Shown: one piece after another, positions 5,470 to 61,250 of the stretch | Numbering within the stretch: position 1 is the stretch's first letter | How the letters are laid out: the number at the start of each line of letters is the position of its first letter | Assembly (NCBI RefSeq): GCF_011752045.1 | Contig: NZ_JAAKXW010000003.1 | Span: forward strand, 372,001 to 436,000 | DNA from: Microbacterium hydrocarbonoxydans | Lineage (GTDB): Bacteria; Actinomycetota; Actinomycetes; Actinomycetales; Microbacteriaceae | Length of the DNA: 64,000 nt | Direction of reading: 5' to 3' | Program-made: the position numbers and the translations under genes | The notes under the pieces: model-generated | What the model was told of the DNA's origin: nothing | Database searches by the model: none | The model's input: the letters and a program-made list of their open reading frames with translations, nothing else

Positions 5470-5503
5470 CCGGCATCCGCTCCCGGAGCGTCCTGACTCC
5501 TGT

Positions 5504-5560
5504 TCCGGTCGCACTTCGGCACAGTCCGCGACGTGACGACTGTGCCGAAGTTCGACCGGA
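5504..5560. repeat. 59-bp palindromic element, copy 1 (bidirectional terminator position)
   Basis: Arms 5504-5526 and 5538-5560 pair over 23 bp with one mismatch, leaving an 11-base loop. A closely related copy sits at 9186-9246. It lies between the converging amidohydrolase and PepSY genes, so it probably ends transcription from both sides. Confidence 0.75.
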
Positions 5561-5591
5561 GCGGGGCCGACGGGCTCAACGACGCGACGGG

Positions 5592-9137: not shown

Positions 9138-9185
9138 TCTCCGACGCTACCAGCGCGGGAACCGCCGTCCCGGGGCCAGACAGCG

Positions 9186-9246
9186 GTTCCGGTCGCACTC
9201 TGGCATAGTCCGCGGCGTGAGGACTGTGCCGAAGTGCGACCGGAAC
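9186..9246. repeat. 61-bp palindromic element, copy 2
   Basis: Arms 9186-9210 and 9222-9246 pair with three mismatches. The right arm is nearly identical to that of the element at 5504-5560. It lies downstream of the phosphatase gene and upstream of the membrane-protein gene, both on the minus strand, and probably terminates the phosphatase mRNA. Confidence 0.7.
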
Positions 9247-9319
9247 GAGGGCCGCGGGGCCGCGGGGCCGCGAGGGGCCGTGGACCGCGCGGTCCGCAGC
9301 GCCCGCGCGGTCCACGGGG

Positions 9320-23870: not shown

Positions 23871-23878
23871 TCAGATCC

Positions 23879-23913
23879 GCATCCGGGCCGGTGCCCGATC
23901 CCGGCCCGGATGC
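23879..23913. terminator. Bidirectional hairpin terminator
   Basis: GCATCCGGGCCGG and CCGGCCCGGATGC form a perfect 13-bp stem with a 9-base loop between the converging GH3 and mannitol-dehydrogenase-family genes. Confidence 0.75.
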
Positions 23914-23954
23914 GCACCACGGCCCCGCACGCCCTCGGGCGACGGGCCGCCCGC

Positions 23955-29615: not shown

Positions 29616-30614
29616 TCAGGCCTCCCAGTTCAGTTCGACGCCACCCATTCGGGCGCTCCGTTCGGCGAGGAGTGCGATGCGGGTGGCGACGATGGCGTCG
29701 CGGGTCGCGCGGTCCGCATCCGCTCCTCCGGCCAGCAGCGCGTCGAGCGCGTCCTGCGCCGGACGGCGTCCGCGCGGTGCCCTGGGCGAATGACGCGGCT
29801 CGGAAGCTGTGGTCAGCTCGAACACGCCCCGGCCCCAGTAGACCTCGGCCGTACCCTCCGCGCCCACCACCCGCAGGCGATAGTCGCCGTGGATGTCGGA
29901 CCCGCTCGGTGTCAGCCAGTCGACCTCGGCGCTCAGCCTGACGCCGTCGCCGTCTCCGTCGTCGAGGACCACTGTCGCTCCGCCCTGCAGGTGGAATCCG
30001 GTCTCGATCGTAGGACCCAGCCATCCGCGGACCGTGCCGCGGGTGGCTCCGGTGATCTGCAGTGCGATGTCGACATCGTGCACCAGGAGATCGGCGAGGA
30101 TGCCTCCATAGTTGTCGGGGTCAAGGAACCAGGGTGCCCGCTGTTCCCGGAGAAGCTTGTGCGGTGCCCAGGACGCGAGCGCGACCGGGACGCCGAGACG
30201 CCCCTCTTCGATGGCCTCCGTGAGAGCGAGGGTCTCGGGATACGTGCGCTTCTCGAGCATCAGCGCGACTCTGCGGCCCGTCGACGCTGCGGTCGCCTCG
30301 ATGGCGGCGAGTTCGTCGAGATCGAGGCACAGCGGCTTGTCGCAGAGCACATCCGCACCGCCGCGCAGTGCGGCCAGCACGATGTCTGCGCGCTCGCTGT
30401 AGACGCCCGCGCAGACGACGATCGACGATCGCAGCCTGAGGACCTCGTCGAGCGAAGAGAGCACGGGGGCCCCGAACTCGGCAGCGATGCCCGCTGCGGC
30501 CTCTTGGTCGGGGTCGTGCACTCCGTCAAGACGAAGGTCGGGACGCTCACGGAGTTCGGCGAGGGCGTACTCGACGTGCGAGTGCGCCACACCGACGATC
30601 ACAATGCCTGTCAT
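29616..30614 (-). CDS. Gfo/Idh/MocA oxidoreductase 2
   Basis: A 332-residue paralogue of the neighbouring oxidoreductase. The Rossmann-like N-terminus is GIVIVGVAHSHVEYALAELRE (an AHSHV variant of the usual GxGxxG), LCDKPLCLD carries the catalytic Lys near 95, and DNYGGILADLLVHDVDIALQI has the His-Asp of the family. It is the first gene of the seven-gene minus-strand operon, directly behind the LacI operator and promoter at 30630. The dinucleotide-binding loop is weakly conserved, so its cofactor use may differ. Confidence 0.88.
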   Translation of the reverse strand: MTGIVIVGVAHSHVEYALAELRERPDLRLDGVHDPDQEAAAGIAAEFGAPVLSSLDEVLRLRSSIVVCAGVYSERADIVLAALRGGADVLCDKPLCLDLDELAAIEATAASTGRRVALMLEKRTYPETLALTEAIEEGRLGVPVALASWAPHKLLREQRAPWFLDPDNYGGILADLLVHDVDIALQITGATRGTVRGWLGPTIETGFHLQGGATVVLDDGDGDGVRLSAEVDWLTPSGSDIHGDYRLRVVGAEGTAEVYWGRGVFELTTASEPRHSPRAPRGRRPAQDALDALLAGGADADRATRDAIVATRIALLAERSARMGGVELNWEA

Positions 30615-30629
30615 GTGGGCATTGAATCA

Positions 30630-30643
30630 TGCAACCGCTTGCA
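30630..30643 (-). promoter_or_regulatory. LacI operator 1 with minus-strand promoter
   Basis: The perfect palindrome TGCAACCGCTTGCA lies directly downstream of a TTGACT -35 on the minus strand and before an ATTCAA/TTCAAT -10. It is the exact reverse complement of the operator at 31695, and the shared block extends to 21 bp. It controls the importer and oxidoreductase operon. Confidence 0.85.
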
Positions 30644-30646
30644 AAG

Positions 30647-31651
30647 TCAACGACGGATATTGCGGGCCGGCGCCACACTCGCGCGGTGCACGAGATGCGC
30701 GGCGAGCGCCGTGCGCTCGACAGGTGCGGCGCCATCGATCAGCCCGAGCAACGTCGACAGCGCGGCCGCCCCGCTCGCCGCCGAACCGCCCGACACCGTC
30801 GTCAGTGCGGGCAGCGTCGTCGCCGCAAGCACGTCGTCGCAGCCGATCACGCTGAAGTCCGCGGGCACATTCAACCCGATGAGGCTGAACCCGGCGAGCA
30901 CGCCGTGCGCGATCACATCATCGAACGCGATCGCCGCCGTGGCTCCGGTCGCGATCAGCGAGCCGACACACTCGCGCCCGGCCTCGTAACTGGGCCTGCC
31001 GAGCTCGATCACAGTCACGGTCACGGCGGCCGCGGCGGCGCCCCCCAGAACCGCGGCGCGGCGCTGCTGGTCGGCCCAAGTCTCCGGTGGCCCCGCGAGG
31101 TAGGCGATCGTCGAGTGCCCCATCGCGGCGAGCAGGTCGACCGCCTCACGCACACCGGATGCCGCGTCGACGAGAACGCGTTGAACGCCCTCGATCTCGC
31201 GATTGATCAAGACGGTCGGAACTCGCTCCGCGAGTTCGAGGATCTGCTCCGCGGGAAGTCGCGACGAAGCGAGAACGAAGCCATCGACCTGCATGTCGAG
31301 CCTGTCGATCAGCACCTTCTCGCGGGCCGCGCGCTCATCCGAGTCCCCGAGGAACACCGCGTAGCCTGCGCGCTCCGCGCCGGCTTCCACCTCGCGCACG
31401 AGCGGTGGGAAGAAGGGATTGGCGATGTCCGGGACGATGAGCGCGATGTTCCGCGTACGACCGGTCGACAGTGCCCTGGCATGCGGGTCGACCGAGTAGC
31501 CGAGCTCAATCGCAAGCCGCTTGATCCGTTCGACCGTGTCGTCACGGATGAGGTCGGGGCGGGTGAAGGCCCGTGACGCGGTCGACTCTGACACGCCGGC
31601 GGCTCGCGCGAGATCGGCGAGCGTCACCCTGCCCTTTCGTTTCGAGGTCAT
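30647..31651 (-). CDS. LacI-family repressor of the amino-sugar locus
   Basis: A 334-residue regulator. The HTH VTLADLARAAGVSESTASRAF and hinge YSVDPHARALSTGRTRNIAL are typical, and the effector domain ends in the LLGLIDG segment. It lies between its own two identical operators: one behind its stop, driving the catabolic operon, the other in the divergent promoter shared with nagB. It probably represses both operons and itself. The likely inducer is an amino sugar or its 6-phosphate, by analogy to other nag-linked LacI/GntR systems. This is inferred from context. Confidence 0.9.
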   Translation of the reverse strand: MTSKRKGRVTLADLARAAGVSESTASRAFTRPDLIRDDTVERIKRLAIELGYSVDPHARALSTGRTRNIALIVPDIANPFFPPLVREVEAGAERAGYAVFLGDSDERAAREKVLIDRLDMQVDGFVLASSRLPAEQILELAERVPTVLINREIEGVQRVLVDAASGVREAVDLLAAMGHSTIAYLAGPPETWADQQRRAAVLGGAAAAAVTVTVIELGRPSYEAGRECVGSLIATGATAAIAFDDVIAHGVLAGFSLIGLNVPADFSVIGCDDVLAATTLPALTTVSGGSAASGAAALSTLLGLIDGAAPVERTALAAHLVHRASVAPARNIRR

Positions 31652-31687: not shown

Positions 31688-31715
31688 TTGACTTTGCAAG
31701 CGGTTGCACTATTCT
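31688..31715 (+). promoter_or_regulatory. nagB promoter with LacI operator 2 in its spacer
   Basis: TTGACT (31688-31693), a 16-base spacer, then TATTCT (31710-31715). The operator TGCAAGCGGTTGCA (31695-31708) fills the spacer, the standard place for steric repression. The nagB ATG lies eight bases beyond the -10, so this mRNA is probably leaderless. Confidence 0.85.
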
Positions 31716-31723
31716 TGCACAAC

Positions 31724-32482
31724 ATGAGTGCGTCCTCGTTCAGCCTGAACGTCCATCCCGATCGCGGCACGATGGGCTCAGCCGCGGCCCATGCCGCCGC
31801 CGAGACACTGCGTGCGGCCATCGCCGATCGCGGATCCGCGCGAATGATCGCCGCCGCGGCGCCGAGTCAGCTCGACGTGTACCGGGCACTCGCCGAGGAG
31901 CCCGACATCAGGTGGGAGCAGGTGACCATCCTCCACATGGATGAATATGTCGATCTCTCGCCCGCCGCGCCGCAGAGGTTCGGCAACTGGCTCCGCGAGC
32001 ACCTCCTGACGAGGATCGGAGACGTGACCTTCCACCCGATGCGCACCGAGGCCGGCCCAGATGCCGCGATCGCAGAGTACGCGGCACTTCTCGCGGAGGC
32101 TCCGATCGACCTGGTCTGTCTCGGCATCGGGGTGAACGGCCACATCGCGTTCAACGACCCGCCCGACGCGCAGCTCGACGATGCCAAGGCCGTCCGCGTG
32201 GTTCATCTCGATGAGGTGAGTCGCATGCAGCAGGTCGATGATGAGTGCTTCGCTACCCTCGATGATGTGCCGACGCATGCGCTCACCCTCACGATTCCCG
32301 CGCTCCTGCGTGGCAGCCACCTCGTGTGCGCCGTCCCTGACGCACGCAAGGCGGAGGCCGTGCGTGCGCTGATGGAGGAGCAGGTCGATGCCACCTGGCC
32401 GTGCACGGTGCTGCGTCGGCATCCGCACTGCGAGGTACACGTTGACCGCGAGGCTGCCTCGCTTCTCCCCGCCACAGCATGA
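31724..32482 (+). CDS. nagB: Glucosamine-6-phosphate deaminase-like protein
   Basis: A 252-residue NagB-family protein. LHMDEYV contains Asp73, equivalent to the proton-accepting Asp72 of E. coli. The active-site segment is GIGVNGHIAFNDPP: Asn138 takes the place of catalytic Asp141, His140 matches His143, and Asp145 replaces Glu148. The classical reaction converts glucosamine 6-phosphate to fructose 6-phosphate and ammonia. The relay changes are seen in a branch of the family and could shift the substrate. The start at 31724 is used because it follows the promoter directly; the earlier in-frame start at 31664 lies upstream of that promoter. Confidence 0.85.
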   Translation: MSASSFSLNVHPDRGTMGSAAAHAAAETLRAAIADRGSARMIAAAAPSQLDVYRALAEEPDIRWEQVTILHMDEYVDLSPAAPQRFGNWLREHLLTRIGDVTFHPMRTEAGPDAAIAEYAALLAEAPIDLVCLGIGVNGHIAFNDPPDAQLDDAKAVRVVHLDEVSRMQQVDDECFATLDDVPTHALTLTIPALLRGSHLVCAVPDARKAEAVRALMEEQVDATWPCTVLRRHPHCEVHVDREAASLLPATA

Positions 32483-38418: not shown

Positions 38419-39339
38419 ATGGAGCATCGCGATCTGCTGCGCGTCGGCATCGTCGGAGCGGGCGGCATCGCCCCGCCGCACATCAGCGGATGGCTGGCGA
38501 TCGGTGCGGAGGTGCTGCTGCTCCGTCGCGGCGGGGCGGCAGAGCTCGCCGCGACGCACGGCCTCGCGGTGATCGACGACCTCGCCGAACTGCTCGACCG
38601 CGTCGACGTCGTCGACATCCTCAGCCCCACGCCCACCCACGCCGGCATCGCCCTCGCGGCGATCGCCCGCGGCAGGCACGTCGTCTGCGAGAAGCCGCTG
38701 GCGCTGGATGCCGCCGAGGCGCAGCGCATGGCCGACGCGGCCGCTGCCGCCGGCATCCGTCTGTTCCCCGCCCATGTCGTGCGGTACTTCGCGGACTATG
38801 CACGGGCGAAGGAGCAGGCGGATGCCGGGGCGATCGGCGACCTCGTCGAACTGCGGTTCCGGCGCACGGTCGCCGCTCCGGAACCGGCGTGGTTCTTCGA
38901 TGCGGATGCCGGTGGCGGAGTCATCCGCGACCTGATGATCCACGATCTCGATCAGGCGCTGTGGTTCGCCGGCCCCGTGGTGGAGGTGTCGGCCGCGCAG
39001 GCCGGGAGCGGCGCCCCGCCGCAGACGGCGGAGGTCGTGCTCACGCACGCGAGCGGGGCCGTGAGCAGGATCGTCGCCGAATGGCTCGCGCCGGGCACGT
39101 CGTTCCGGTCCACCGCCGAGATCGCCGGCACGCACGGAGTGCTGCGGGTGGACACTGCGGCTCCGGTCTCCCCGCCATCGGACCCGTATCTCGCCCAGCT
39201 CGCCGACTTCGCCTCCGCGCTGGCCGCCGGCACGCCGGTGCGCGTGAGCCCGCAGGACGGCATCGCGGCCGTGTCCCTCGTCGATGCCGCCTGCGCCTCG
39301 CTCGCCGCGGGCGCCCCGGTGCGGGTCGCCGTCGGCTGA
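38419..39339 (+). CDS. Gfo/Idh/MocA oxidoreductase 3
   Basis: A 306-residue NAD(P)-dependent oxidoreductase. The Rossmann motif is GIVGAGGIAPPHISGWL (about 8-24), VVCEKPLALDAAEAQRM carries the catalytic EKP near 93, and DADAGGGVIRDLMIHDLDQALW has the conserved His-Asp. The C-terminal fold is shorter than in the two paralogues at 28.5-30.6 kb, and there is no sugar cluster next to it. Substrate unknown; it is transcribed alone between corA and a palindromic element. Confidence 0.88.
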   Translation: MEHRDLLRVGIVGAGGIAPPHISGWLAIGAEVLLLRRGGAAELAATHGLAVIDDLAELLDRVDVVDILSPTPTHAGIALAAIARGRHVVCEKPLALDAAEAQRMADAAAAAGIRLFPAHVVRYFADYARAKEQADAGAIGDLVELRFRRTVAAPEPAWFFDADAGGGVIRDLMIHDLDQALWFAGPVVEVSAAQAGSGAPPQTAEVVLTHASGAVSRIVAEWLAPGTSFRSTAEIAGTHGVLRVDTAAPVSPPSDPYLAQLADFASALAAGTPVRVSPQDGIAAVSLVDAACASLAAGAPVRVAVG

Positions 39340-39347
39340 GCCGGGCC

Positions 39348-39434
39348 GTTCACAACTCCTCAGAACGAGCCTCGGAACCGCTGTTCCCGCCCCTCAGCCC
39401 CGCGTTTCACCCGCGATTCTGAGGAGTTGTGAAC
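39348..39434. repeat. 87-bp element with 18-bp perfect inverted ends
   Basis: GTTCACAACTCCTCAGAA (39348-39365) and its exact reverse complement (39417-39434) bracket 51 bp. It lies between converging genes. A second copy sits inside a coding sequence at 54189-54274. Confidence 0.8.
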
Positions 39435-39445
39435 GGTGACGTCGG

Positions 39446-40030
39446 CTACAGCGTCGCGAGGATCTCCTTCATCTCGGCGATCTCCTCGCCCTGCGCCGCG
39501 ACGATGTCCTCAGCCAGGGCGACGGCATCCGGGTGCTTCCCGTCGGCGATCTCGGTCTCGGCCATCGTGATCGCGCCCTCATGGTGCACGATCATCTGCT
39601 CCAGGAACAGCCTCGAGGCCTCGGCGCCGGATGCCGCCTCCAGGGCGGCCAGGTCGTCCTCGGTCATCATGCCGTCGCCGCGATGCATGCCGCCCTCGGG
39701 GGCGTCCACGCCCCAGTCGTCGAGCCAGCCCTGCATCTTGTCGATCTCCGGCGCCTGCGCGGCCTTGATCCTCTCGGCCAGGTCGACGACGCGCGGGTCG
39801 ATGCCCTCCTTGCCGAGCACCAGGTCGGACATGTCGACGGCCTGCTGGTGGTGCACGATCATCATCGCCGCGAACATCGCGTCGGCCTCGTTCGCTCCGG
39901 ATGCCGGGGCGTCGCTCGCCGAGTGGTCCATGCCGGGCATCGACGGGTGGTCGGTCGGCGTGGCGGACGAGCATCCGGTGAGGGCGATTGCGCCCGCCAG
40001 GACGAGTGCGGTCACGATCGGTTTCTTCAT
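39446..40030 (-). CDS. DUF305 lipoprotein
   Basis: A 194-residue lipoprotein with lipobox LTGC (Cys20). The mature part is helical and has two DUF305 repeats: MMIVHHQQAVDMSD (about 89-102) and MIVHHEGAITMAE (about 153-165). Paired His and Met residues make a copper-binding-like face. DUF305 proteins often lie in copper-resistance loci. It is preceded by the DUF6153 gene (50-bp gap), and a CsoR-like box lies before that gene, so a role in extracellular copper handling is the best inference. Confidence 0.85.
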   Translation of the reverse strand: MKKPIVTALVLAGAIALTGCSSATPTDHPSMPGMDHSASDAPASGANEADAMFAAMMIVHHQQAVDMSDLVLGKEGIDPRVVDLAERIKAAQAPEIDKMQGWLDDWGVDAPEGGMHRGDGMMTEDDLAALEAASGAEASRLFLEQMIVHHEGAITMAETEIADGKHPDAVALAEDIVAAQGEEIAEMKEILATL

Positions 40031-50149: not shown

Positions 50150-50248
50150 CGGTCGTCGAGCGAGGGAGCGCAGCGACCGAGACGAAACGCCCCGTGATCC
50201 CGGAACCGTGTCACGACGGGCGTTTCGTCTCGCTTCGCTCAACGACCG
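50150..50248. repeat. Inverted pair of GTCGTTGAGCGAGCG-type repeats between convergent genes
   Basis: CGGTCGTCGAGCGAG and GACGAAACGCCC face GGGCGTTTCGTCTCGC and CTCAACGACCG, giving a large stem with a loop of about 20 bases. It would act as a two-way terminator for the regulator and the betaine-binding gene. Confidence 0.7.
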
Positions 50249-53750: not shown

Positions 53751-54956
53751 TCAGCGGCGGACGCTGCGCATCACGGTGAACTTCGGCGTGCGCGCGAGCT
53801 GCTCGGTCGGCCCGATCAGGCGGGTCAGCTCCGCCCGGTAGCCGAGGGCGGAGTTGTACACCGTGAGAAGCTCTCCTCCGGGGCGGAGCAGTCGCGCCGA
53901 CGCCTCGAACAGCCGGGTCGCGGCCCCCGTGTGCACGCTGCTGCCGAGGTGGAACGGCGGGTTCAGCAGCACGAGATCCGCGCTGCCCTCGGCGAGCTCC
54001 GAGGCGGCGTCGTCATGCATCACCGTGACGCGGTCGGCGACGCCGTTCGCGGCCGCCGTGGCCCGCGCGGATGCCGCGGCCGCGGCCGACCGGTCGGTGG
54101 CGATGACGCGTGCTTCCGGGTGGGCGAGCGCGTACGAGACGGCGAGCGCGCCGGTGCCGCAGCCGAGGTCGACGACCGTCTCGGCGGCGTTCACAACTCC
54201 ACAAGAACTCCGCCCCGCGGCCCCGTCCGGCCCCGGAACAGCCGCACACGACCCGTTCTTGAGGAGTTGTGAACCGCCGAGGCCGAGCACATCCAGCAGG
54301 ACGCGGGTGCCGATGTCGAGCTTCGCACCCGCGAACGCCCCTCCGTGCGCCACGAGCGTGAGCCCGTCGTGCTGCGCGGTCACCGGGAACGGCGGGCCGG
54401 CGGGAACGGGCAGCGGCTCGGAGGCGATCACAAGACGTGACTTCCGCTCCGCGCGCTGCGCCTGCACCCGCCCGAAGCTCCGGCCGAGCACCTCGTTCTG
54501 CGCAAGGGTCATGTGCTTCACCCGGCCCCCGGCGACGAGCACCGCGTCGGGCGCGGCCCAGCGGGCCACGGCATCCGCGATCTCCTCGAGCTCGGCGAGC
54601 GCCTTCGGCAGCTGCATAAGCACGAGCCGGGCGCCCTCGAGCAGCGAGCGGTCGAGTTCGTGCGCGGAGAAGCCCGCGAGGCCCAGCTCCGCGGCGTTGC
54701 TCGCGAGCGCCCTGCGCCCGGTGGCAAGGTCCTGATGCACGCGGATGCCGGCGAGCCCGGCATCCGTCAGCGCCAGCGTGATCGCGCCGTACTCGTCCCC
54801 GATGACGGCGACCTCCGCCCCGCTTATGCCGTGTTCTGCGGCGAGGGCGAGACCGCGATCGACGAGGAGGACGTCGGTGGCGTCGTGCGCCTGGAGGTTC
54901 GGGGCCTCGACGTCGGGCCGGCGGCGCAGACGGTCGTAGGGGAAGTCGGGCACCAC
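53751..54956 (-). CDS. RsmC/RlmG-like rRNA guanine-N2 methyltransferase with an inserted element
   Basis: A 401-residue class I SAM methyltransferase. The N-terminal half is a degenerate MTase fold and the C-terminal half is catalytic: DIGTRVLLDVL, then motif I VVDLGCGTGALAV (about 258-270) and the NPPF motif (about 333). RsmC methylates 16S G1207 and RlmG 23S G1835; which one is not clear. The start is a GTG at 54956 or 54953. Between LLDVLGLGG and ETVVDLGCG lie about 28 extra residues (227-256), encoded by a palindromic element that inserted in-frame. Confidence 0.8.
   Translation of the reverse strand: MVPDFPYDRLRRRPDVEAPNLQAHDATDVLLVDRGLALAAEHGISGAEVAVIGDEYGAITLALTDAGLAGIRVHQDLATGRRALASNAAELGLAGFSAHELDRSLLEGARLVLMQLPKALAELEEIADAVARWAAPDAVLVAGGRVKHMTLAQNEVLGRSFGRVQAQRAERKSRLVIASEPLPVPAGPPFPVTAQHDGLTLVAHGGAFAGAKLDIGTRVLLDVLGLGGSQLLKNGSCAAVPGPDGAAGRSSCGVVNAAETVVDLGCGTGALAVSYALAHPEARVIATDRSAAAAASARATAAANGVADRVTVMHDDAASELAEGSADLVLLNPPFHLGSSVHTGAATRLFEASARLLRPGGELLTVYNSALGYRAELTRLIGPTEQLARTPKFTVMRSVRR
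54189..54274. repeat. 86-bp inverted-repeat element inserted in-frame in the rRNA methyltransferase
   Basis: Arms GTTCACAACTCCACAAGAAC (54189-54208) and the complement of GTTCACAACTCCTCAAGAAC (54255-54274) match the arms of the element at 39348-39434. The protein stays open, so the insert adds roughly 28 residues between the motif-I strand and the preceding helix. Confidence 0.8.
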
Positions 54957-59102: not shown

Positions 59103-59156
59103 GCATGCAGAAGAGCCGCCCTCCCGAGCACCTCGGAGGGCGGCTCTTCTGCATGC
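59103..59156 (+). terminator. Very long perfect-stem terminator
   Basis: Bases 59103-59124 and 59135-59156 form 22 perfect base pairs around a 10-base loop. It follows the rhodanese gene and ends three bases before the -35 of the next operon. Confidence 0.85.
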
Positions 59157-61209: not shown

Positions 61210-61250
61210 CGGATGCCGTCGCCGCATGCACCGTGCGGCGACGGCATCCG
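61210..61250 (+). terminator. Hairpin terminator built from GGATGCC/GGCATCC
   Basis: CGGATGCCGTCGCCGCA (61210-61226) and its exact complement (61234-61250) form a 17-bp stem with a seven-base loop after the permease gene. Confidence 0.75.

Follow-up and report, generated by a model that had tools for sequence, protein, structure and literature searches.

Palindromic elements in Microbacterium and their association with genes for a predicted AbiEi-like and Vsr-like nuclease

The gene for an RlmG/RsmC-like methyltransferase in Microbacterium hydrocarbonoxydans is crossed by an 86-bp palindrome. The window examined here is the whole 64,000-nucleotide stretch that holds this gene; its genome is labelled G000. 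A first-pass annotation had described two copies of the palindrome in the window, 86 and 87 bp long, and both are present:

53751..54956, minus strand: RlmG/RsmC-like methyltransferase gene carrying the element (Pfam MTS); ends from a codon-usage gene caller
54189..54274, no strand assigned: palindromic element of family A, 86 bp, in frame in the methyltransferase gene and encoding residues 228-256
54189..54208, plus strand: left arm of this element; its outer 12 letters are those of the copy at 39348
54255..54274, minus strand: right arm of this element, inverted
39348..39434, no strand assigned: second copy, 87 bp, almost filling the spacer between two convergent genes
38419..39339, plus strand: gene ending right before the 39348 copy (codon-usage gene caller)
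39446..40030, minus strand: gene ending right after the 39348 copy (codon-usage gene caller)

The inverted arms of the element at 54189-54274 are about 18-20 bp long, and element ends read GTTCAC..GTGAAC plus variants. Folded as single-stranded DNA, this copy and the one at 39348-39434 reach z scores of -7.3 and -7.5, equalled by none of 200 shuffles, and the stretch 36000-57500 of the window has no Rfam match at gathering score. Gaps of 8 and 11 bp separate the 39348 copy from the called ends of its two neighbors, and in genomes G142 and G171 an element also adjoins the relatives of the gene at 39446..40030. The open reading frame runs across the 54189-54274 copy, so that the proposed in-frame creation of a protein segment (residues 228-256) is confirmed; because 86 cannot be divided by three, the element is not just a cassette whose removal would leave the frame intact. 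Other palindromic features were also observed in the window. A second palindrome family, with arms GGTTCCGGTCGCACTTCGGCACAG, is found at 5492-5574 and 9176-9258 (82% alike, one of them between convergent genes), and four of its motifs are absent from the fetched nuclease-paralogue loci described below. Gene ends at 59103-59156, 50178-50232, 61210-61250 and 23878-23914 carry strong hairpins that are probably ordinary terminators. An inverted 40-nucleotide match, with arms about 1 kb apart, links 30611-30650 to 31688-31727; its letters presumably resemble LacI-type operators.

With its start taken as the GTG at 54956, the methyltransferase has 401 residues. Its C-terminal domain matches Pfam MTS (E 1e-40) and the nearest solved structures are RlmG and RsmC (E 3e-26 and 1e-21); its score is far under the curated NCBIfam cut-offs. 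The structure model has a mean pLDDT of 86.8, falling below 50 at residues 229-254, between a helix (215-223) and the strand (260-264) that leads into DLGCGTG. The element-encoded segment is thus predicted to be a disordered loop before motif I, and in this form the annotated surface position, flanked by the motif-I strand and the helix before it, holds.

To see how the segment is distributed, we compared the best 80 of 115 methyltransferase orthologues. The loop is 16 residues or shorter in 33 of the 80, largely Arthrobacter and Sinomonas, the outgroups in which it measures 12-13 residues; many orthologues therefore lack the segment. Paired arms with up to 7 mismatches occur in 22 of the 80, compared with none of 400 random stretches at fewer than 8 mismatches. 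These paired-arm copies are all 86 bp except one of 56 bp, among the tested lengths of 56, 83, 85, 86, 87 and 89 bp, and their arm types differ. Many Microbacterium species have the loop occupied, and on a quick tree of 58 rows, from which 23 outgroup rows of 81 had been dropped beforehand, presence of the element changes state at least 16 times, with states assigned by a protein pattern that fails to detect some of the worn copies. The short outgroup loops and the patchy presence together point to more than one gain or loss of the methyltransferase copy. This loop is a hot spot for insertions, and unrelated inserts (ALRQAQGP .. EPVEAS) were also seen at it in L049, L051, L054, L056, L058, L060 and L071, in L060 in series with family A.

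The first-pass annotation had likened the element to the palindromic elements of Rickettsia, which passages of PMC10969869 describe as lying in frame in coding genes, at about 150 bp and with a conserved encoded peptide. The likeness extends to the in-frame palindrome and ends there: the present element has 86 bp, and the interior peptides of family A copies differ between species, and it is the arms that are conserved, as DNA. At third codon positions the arms were found conserved in copies picked for intact arms, which for that reason proves nothing by itself; the comparison of the 80 orthologues is free of that selection.

The palindrome belongs to a dispersed family, as had been proposed. 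The 3.65-Mb genome contains 18 exact matches to the 11-letter arm (reversed control, 0), and these 18 arms give 13 elements of 85-98 bp when a partner arm with at most three mismatches is allowed. At least 13 copies are therefore present, not only two, with conserved arms, unrelated interiors and lengths mostly of 84-87 bp; an additional, more worn copy (L335) belongs to a stop-codon locus treated further on. Of 149 genus genomes, 15 contain one or more pairs in which both arms are exact, and a degenerate pattern yields from 0 to about 33 copies per genome in 30 genomes. Length is nearly fixed: among 62 distinct copies in 153 loci, 46 have 86 bp, eight 85 bp, three 87 bp and three 98 bp, the remaining two being of 64 and 56 bp. 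Copies of 98 bp, 12 bp above most, were noted at G000 C2:68458, 91926 and 516038. Helical phasing of the lengths 56, 64, 86 and 98 was considered and set aside, the cases being too few. One copy (L153 2429-2514, G000 contig 2) was seen to cover a divergent promoter and the start of a gene identified by eye as galT; copies at this site also occur in G074, G001, G005, G111 and G142, and the interior there looks conserved, unlike others.

The copies favor convergent spacers. Of 49 placed copies, 24 lie in convergent spacers, 15 in tandem spacers, seven inside genes and one in a divergent spacer, with two undecided; for 67 copies from three genomes, nine of them shared with the first set, the numbers are 30, 27, three, five and two. 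Convergent spacers hold 24/40 and 30/62 of the spacer copies, compared with 13% of the spacer length in the window, and divergent spacers 1/40 and 5/62, compared with 28%. Because the codon-usage gene caller used for placement misses several nuclease genes of the kind described below, adjoining copies are labelled by the wrong neighbors in these full counts. With the nuclease-flanking copies removed, the convergent share is 21/36 and 25/56 and the divergent share 1/36 and 5/56; binomial p values for the convergent preference are then 3e-10 and 9e-9, indicative only since the copies are not independent.

Are these elements mobile? Interior identity is 0.580 within a genome and 0.578 between genomes, with 0.52 (sd 0.055) for random copy pairs, and interiors equally unrelated within and between genomes mean that almost no recent copying is seen. 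The clearest copying pair (L122 and L124 in G142) has interiors 0.91 identical and flanks that differ except for about 15 bp on one side, and G185 shows a duplication about 522 bp apart. Nine neighboring element pairs, mostly of different types, lie 3-38 bp apart. Among 67 elements, flanking direct repeats of 6-10 bp were found in none and of 5 bp in one, giving no sign of target duplication. Among the exact arms of the window genome none belongs to a longer version of the element: all 18 pair at 85-98 bp. A RAYT-like transposase, for which a search had been suggested, was not found in the window genome (PF01797, 0 matches; 5 of 14 control genomes matched). The idea of a recent hop is further contradicted by the many Microbacterium species in which the same methyltransferase loop is occupied, and by a second gene with an in-frame copy. 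This gene, by eye that of an ABC-type ATPase, carries a 29-residue copy at the same place after the Walker A motif in G000, G142 and G185 (L018 1428-1512 on G000 contig 5, L284 and L286), with three different arm types. The earlier reading of a mobile, in-frame palindrome thus survives in its family, its protein segment and the many orthologues without that segment, and finds no support in a RAYT, a target duplication or a recent hop. The nuclease family described below did not figure in it.

Terminal inverted repeats, dispersed copies and the patchy presence in the methyltransferase tree would all be expected of ordinary MITEs, left behind by a transposon whose transposase has been lost or is encoded elsewhere; any nuclease genes beside them would then be tolerant neighbors. 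The missing target duplications and the lack of a longer version among the 18 exact arms of the window genome speak against this, as does the gene that the elements were found to bracket. In G079 and G132, two elements about 1 kb apart enclose a single open reading frame, which is DUF559/MTES_1575-like and not a transposase (L135 and L143). These two frames match MTES_1575, DUF559 and AbiEi_4 weakly, under the curated cut-offs, and have no NCBIfam match.

Examination of the best 30 nuclease genes of this kind in the genus showed an element within 450 bp upstream of 19, downstream of 21, on both sides of 17 and on any side of 23, with none found by the scan at seven. In all, 44 elements lie within 450 bp of the 30 genes, compared with four in 105,600 bases of unrelated loci, in a scan whose consensus was drawn up after viewing these same loci. 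Most flanking elements are 9-28 bp past the end of the nuclease match or 100-165 bp before its start, where match ends are not exact gene ends. The arms are specific to each gene: arm identity is 0.82 within the flanks of one nuclease gene and 0.585 across genes (p 5e-5), a permutation test of same-gene arms gave 0 of 20,000 as good, and a gene's own partner ranked first in 12 of 17 cases. Similarity of the nuclease proteins correlates with that of the arms (Mantel r 0.49, p 2e-4, n 23, ignoring common ancestry).

Gene-specific inverted repeats are also seen around some of the paralogues and some relatives in other genera. Seven stretches of the window genome match the nuclease, six clearly and one marginally (L190, E 0.007), and inverted repeats of other, gene-specific sequence lie around these paralogues. 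Their best flank-to-flank matches score 12, 20, 16, 40, 20, 14 and, for L190, 31; five exceed the cross-pair maximum of 14, one equals it and one is below. For other genera of the class, 13 of 30 loci were chosen by frame length and one with a short flank was dropped; six of the remaining 12 genes beat every cross pair (47, 16, 26, 31, 35 and 44, compared with a cross maximum of 15) and the other six do not. At DUF559 loci of six genomes, palindromes of 84-86 bp with another arm occur at L388, L390 and L393; many of these loci have other inverted repeats and some have none. The bracketing of one gene family by gene-specific arms, extending to 6 of 12 genes in other genera, is not expected of MITEs, and we regard that origin as improbable.

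The partner protein is, by its predicted structure, a DUF559/MTES_1575 protein composed of an AbiEi-like half and a Vsr/homing-endonuclease-like (EDxHD-type) half. The model, built from a 35-row alignment, has a pLDDT of 92.1. Residues 17-182 resemble the AbiEi antitoxin (Foldseek E 1.7e-5; Z 7.1, a level that may reflect mere common arrangement), and the C-terminal half (about 186-286) resembles I-Bth0305I (Z 14.6) and Vsr (Z 12.7). The fold and the conserved acidic/His center that mark Vsr and EDxHD enzymes (for the latter name, see PMC6083498) are both present in model and alignment, with D217, D229, H234, D243 and D247 invariant in the predicted nuclease center.

A relative of this nuclease at E 1e-45 or better is found in 116 of 196 genus genomes, and 22 of the best 30 genes share one common locus, judged by both flanks, or by one where the contig is cut; the gene is therefore for the most part passed on at a fixed site. 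Few relatives occur in plasmid records (4 of 72,556) or in those of phages (1 of 50,697). Across the class, the MTES_1575 profile matches at E <=0.001 in 58 of 79 genomes, in 25 of them above its curated cut-off. This distribution separates the partner from I-Bth0305I, an EDxHD/Vsr-type homing endonuclease with which it shares the catalytic fold (Z 14.6 over 96 residues): the partner gene keeps to one locus in 22 of 30 cases, is rare in plasmid and phage records, and is flanked by elements instead of being inserted in any identifiable cut site. The locus exists with the gene in G171 and without it in the window genome. The fold of the N-terminal half is the likeness to AbiEi of type IV toxin-antitoxin systems, with the same reservation that it may be a common arrangement; the nuclease-like C-terminal half is the difference. 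VsrA of Caulobacter has a DUF559 domain and is Vsr-like; the accessible text of PMC12907096 treats it in relation to mismatch repair and methylation, and a word search of that paper's main text gave no mention of palindromes.

The reading we favor, and consider fairly likely, is that the arms are recognition sites of this dedicated AbiEi-like/Vsr-type nuclease, elements and nuclease together forming a repeat system. Such a reading leads one to ask how arms behave at fixed positions. At a stop-codon locus (the gene is by eye AHSA1/SRPBCC-type), 21 of the 30 species compared have an element, at 1-2 bp beyond the stop in 17 and at 10-34 bp in four; since these 30 rank highest of 193 matching genomes for a query that included the element, the 21/30 share is biased upwards. 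Among the arm types here are CTCCTCA, CTCCGGA, CTCAGCA and ATTCAGCA. A terminator-like hairpin persists in the interior and is shared by arm-free species. Given such hairpins with and without arms, we considered whether arms wrap pre-existing host DNA as their interior; this was rejected as a rule, because methyltransferase loops of 12-15 residues cannot hold an interior and because some species without arms seem to retain remnants of them. At the fixed loci, the methyltransferase included, species differ in arm type but share the position and, mostly, the length of the element.

The arm types at these places suggest that the arm type partly follows the genome's own nuclease. Genomes often have two arm types, one being that of the nuclease flanks, and the dispersed copies of G142 and G001 include the types flanking their own nucleases (CCAGAACTCCGGAG and CACAACTCAGCA, respectively). 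The dispersed copies that fit their own nuclease best number 7 of 24 in G142, 6 of 19 in G001 and 0 of 18 in G185. At the methyltransferase, the G142 copy has the own-nuclease type on both arms, ranked first; the G171 copy has it on one arm (tied with G041), the other arm being of the window's type; the own type ranks first on one arm in G074 and on none in G185. At the stop-codon locus, tested in 27 of the 30 loci (the three omitted carry no element), the fit of arms to the own nuclease is 0.754, compared with 0.695 for other genomes (p 0.0055, 11 genomes), and in only 2 of these 11 does the own nuclease come first. TCA-type arms, unlike the own nuclease flanks, are found there in G142, G185, G184, G074, G171 and G116. 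In G132 and G033 this type is matched by a nuclease, but in six genomes that carry it no second nuclease with such arms turned up among 30 loci out of 41 DUF559 matches. Copies with arms unlike those of the genome's own nuclease, numerous in several genomes, count against the favored reading, as do the seven nuclease genes at which the scan found no element, the near absence of recent copying, the missing target duplications and the low Z of the AbiEi match.

One process that would change arms without moving elements is rewriting in place: after a shift in specificity, the nuclease might convert arms one by one through nick-directed short-patch repair. We offer this as a tentative idea, and a rather unlikely one. 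If true, the enzyme would edit genome-wide marks even inside protein-coding genes; the G171 methyltransferase copy, with its mixed arms, would be a snapshot of the process, and unmatched arms would be those not yet converted. A simpler proposal dispenses with the enzyme: slippage in quasi-palindromes, that is, hairpin-templated correction, could by itself keep arms complementary, and the DUF559 link would be hitch-hiking. In 193 distinct elements, from a scan that required 12 of 18 arm pairs, arm positions 1-15 pair at 0.77-1.00, several of them varying in letter, as such correction predicts. Since it leaves unexplained both the arm types common to copies and nuclease flanks and the near-fixed length, we think it very improbable as the sole cause.

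Persistence at orthologous loci, with arms that at several of them outlast the interiors, bears on another explanation, by which the copies are immobile sites maintained by the host. The AbiEi-like protein would be a regulator, nucleoid or termination protein and the arms its operators, the copies forming a regulon or chromosome marks, and the co-evolution would be that of a regulator with its sites. AbiEi does autorepress on inverted repeats, and the galT copy overlaps the start and divergent promoter of that gene with a conserved interior. However, the copies avoid divergent (promoter) spacers and favor convergent ones, in-frame copies within proteins would be odd operators, and the conserved nuclease center would have no role. 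We therefore judge host-maintained sites unlikely.

Under the favored reading of a nuclease-repeat system, the copies in the window genome need an explanation of their own. In G171 the orthologous nuclease locus is a 1.4-kb spacer holding the gene and three elements; its counterpart in the window genome measures about 311 bp, with no gene or detected element, between neighbors 81-88% identical. None of the other nuclease paralogues of the window genome is flanked by this arm type. With the nuclease absent from its locus, the copies in this genome, including that in the methyltransferase, are probably orphans or relics. That their arms are intact suggests recent loss of the nuclease or another binder.

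We infer that the nuclease binds, cuts and copies the elements. In most genomes with a close relative of it, the gene lies at one conserved locus, usually flanked by elements of its own arm type, and further copies are dispersed, by preference in convergent spacers and sometimes in frame in permissive protein loops. Two nuclease molecules would bind the two arms, a proposal drawn from AbiEi, an autorepressor that binds two 23-bp inverted repeats (in the accessible text of PMC7319586). The enzyme would then nick or cut at the arms or in the hairpin once extruded; with another copy or the opposite arm as template, repair would spread and homogenize the arms, leaving the interior to drift.

The element-nuclease system works like REPIN-RAYT with an unrelated enzyme, and is not a member of it. 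In passages of PMC3116915, REPINs are described as having inverted ends and a less conserved spacer, forming hairpins and lying for the most part outside genes, with a dedicated single-copy enzyme gene next to each type; they co-evolve with the enzyme, and clusters form next to existing REPINs. Family A likewise has paired inverted ends around a less conserved spacer, and its neighboring pairs 3-38 bp apart recall the REPINs beside REPINs of that account. The enzyme is AbiEi-Vsr-like here and a Y1 (HUH) tyrosine transposase there, and PF01797 has 0 matches in the window genome; copies are fewer (0-33 per genome in 30 genomes) and convergent gene ends are favored. The GTAG or CGTC tag that REP ends carry, according to the accessible part of PMC3733652, is not found at the ends of family A. 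In a search mainly of open-licence papers, we found none linking DUF559 or Vsr-like proteins with dispersed palindromes, and the pairing of repeat and nuclease is new to the literature found by that search.

The REPIN-RAYT arrangement would then have arisen independently a second time, here with a different enzyme. The element loci document in nature how sites change while their positions stay fixed, also within proteins, and the widespread actinobacterial MTES_1575/DUF559 family gains a candidate DNA partner that is directly testable.
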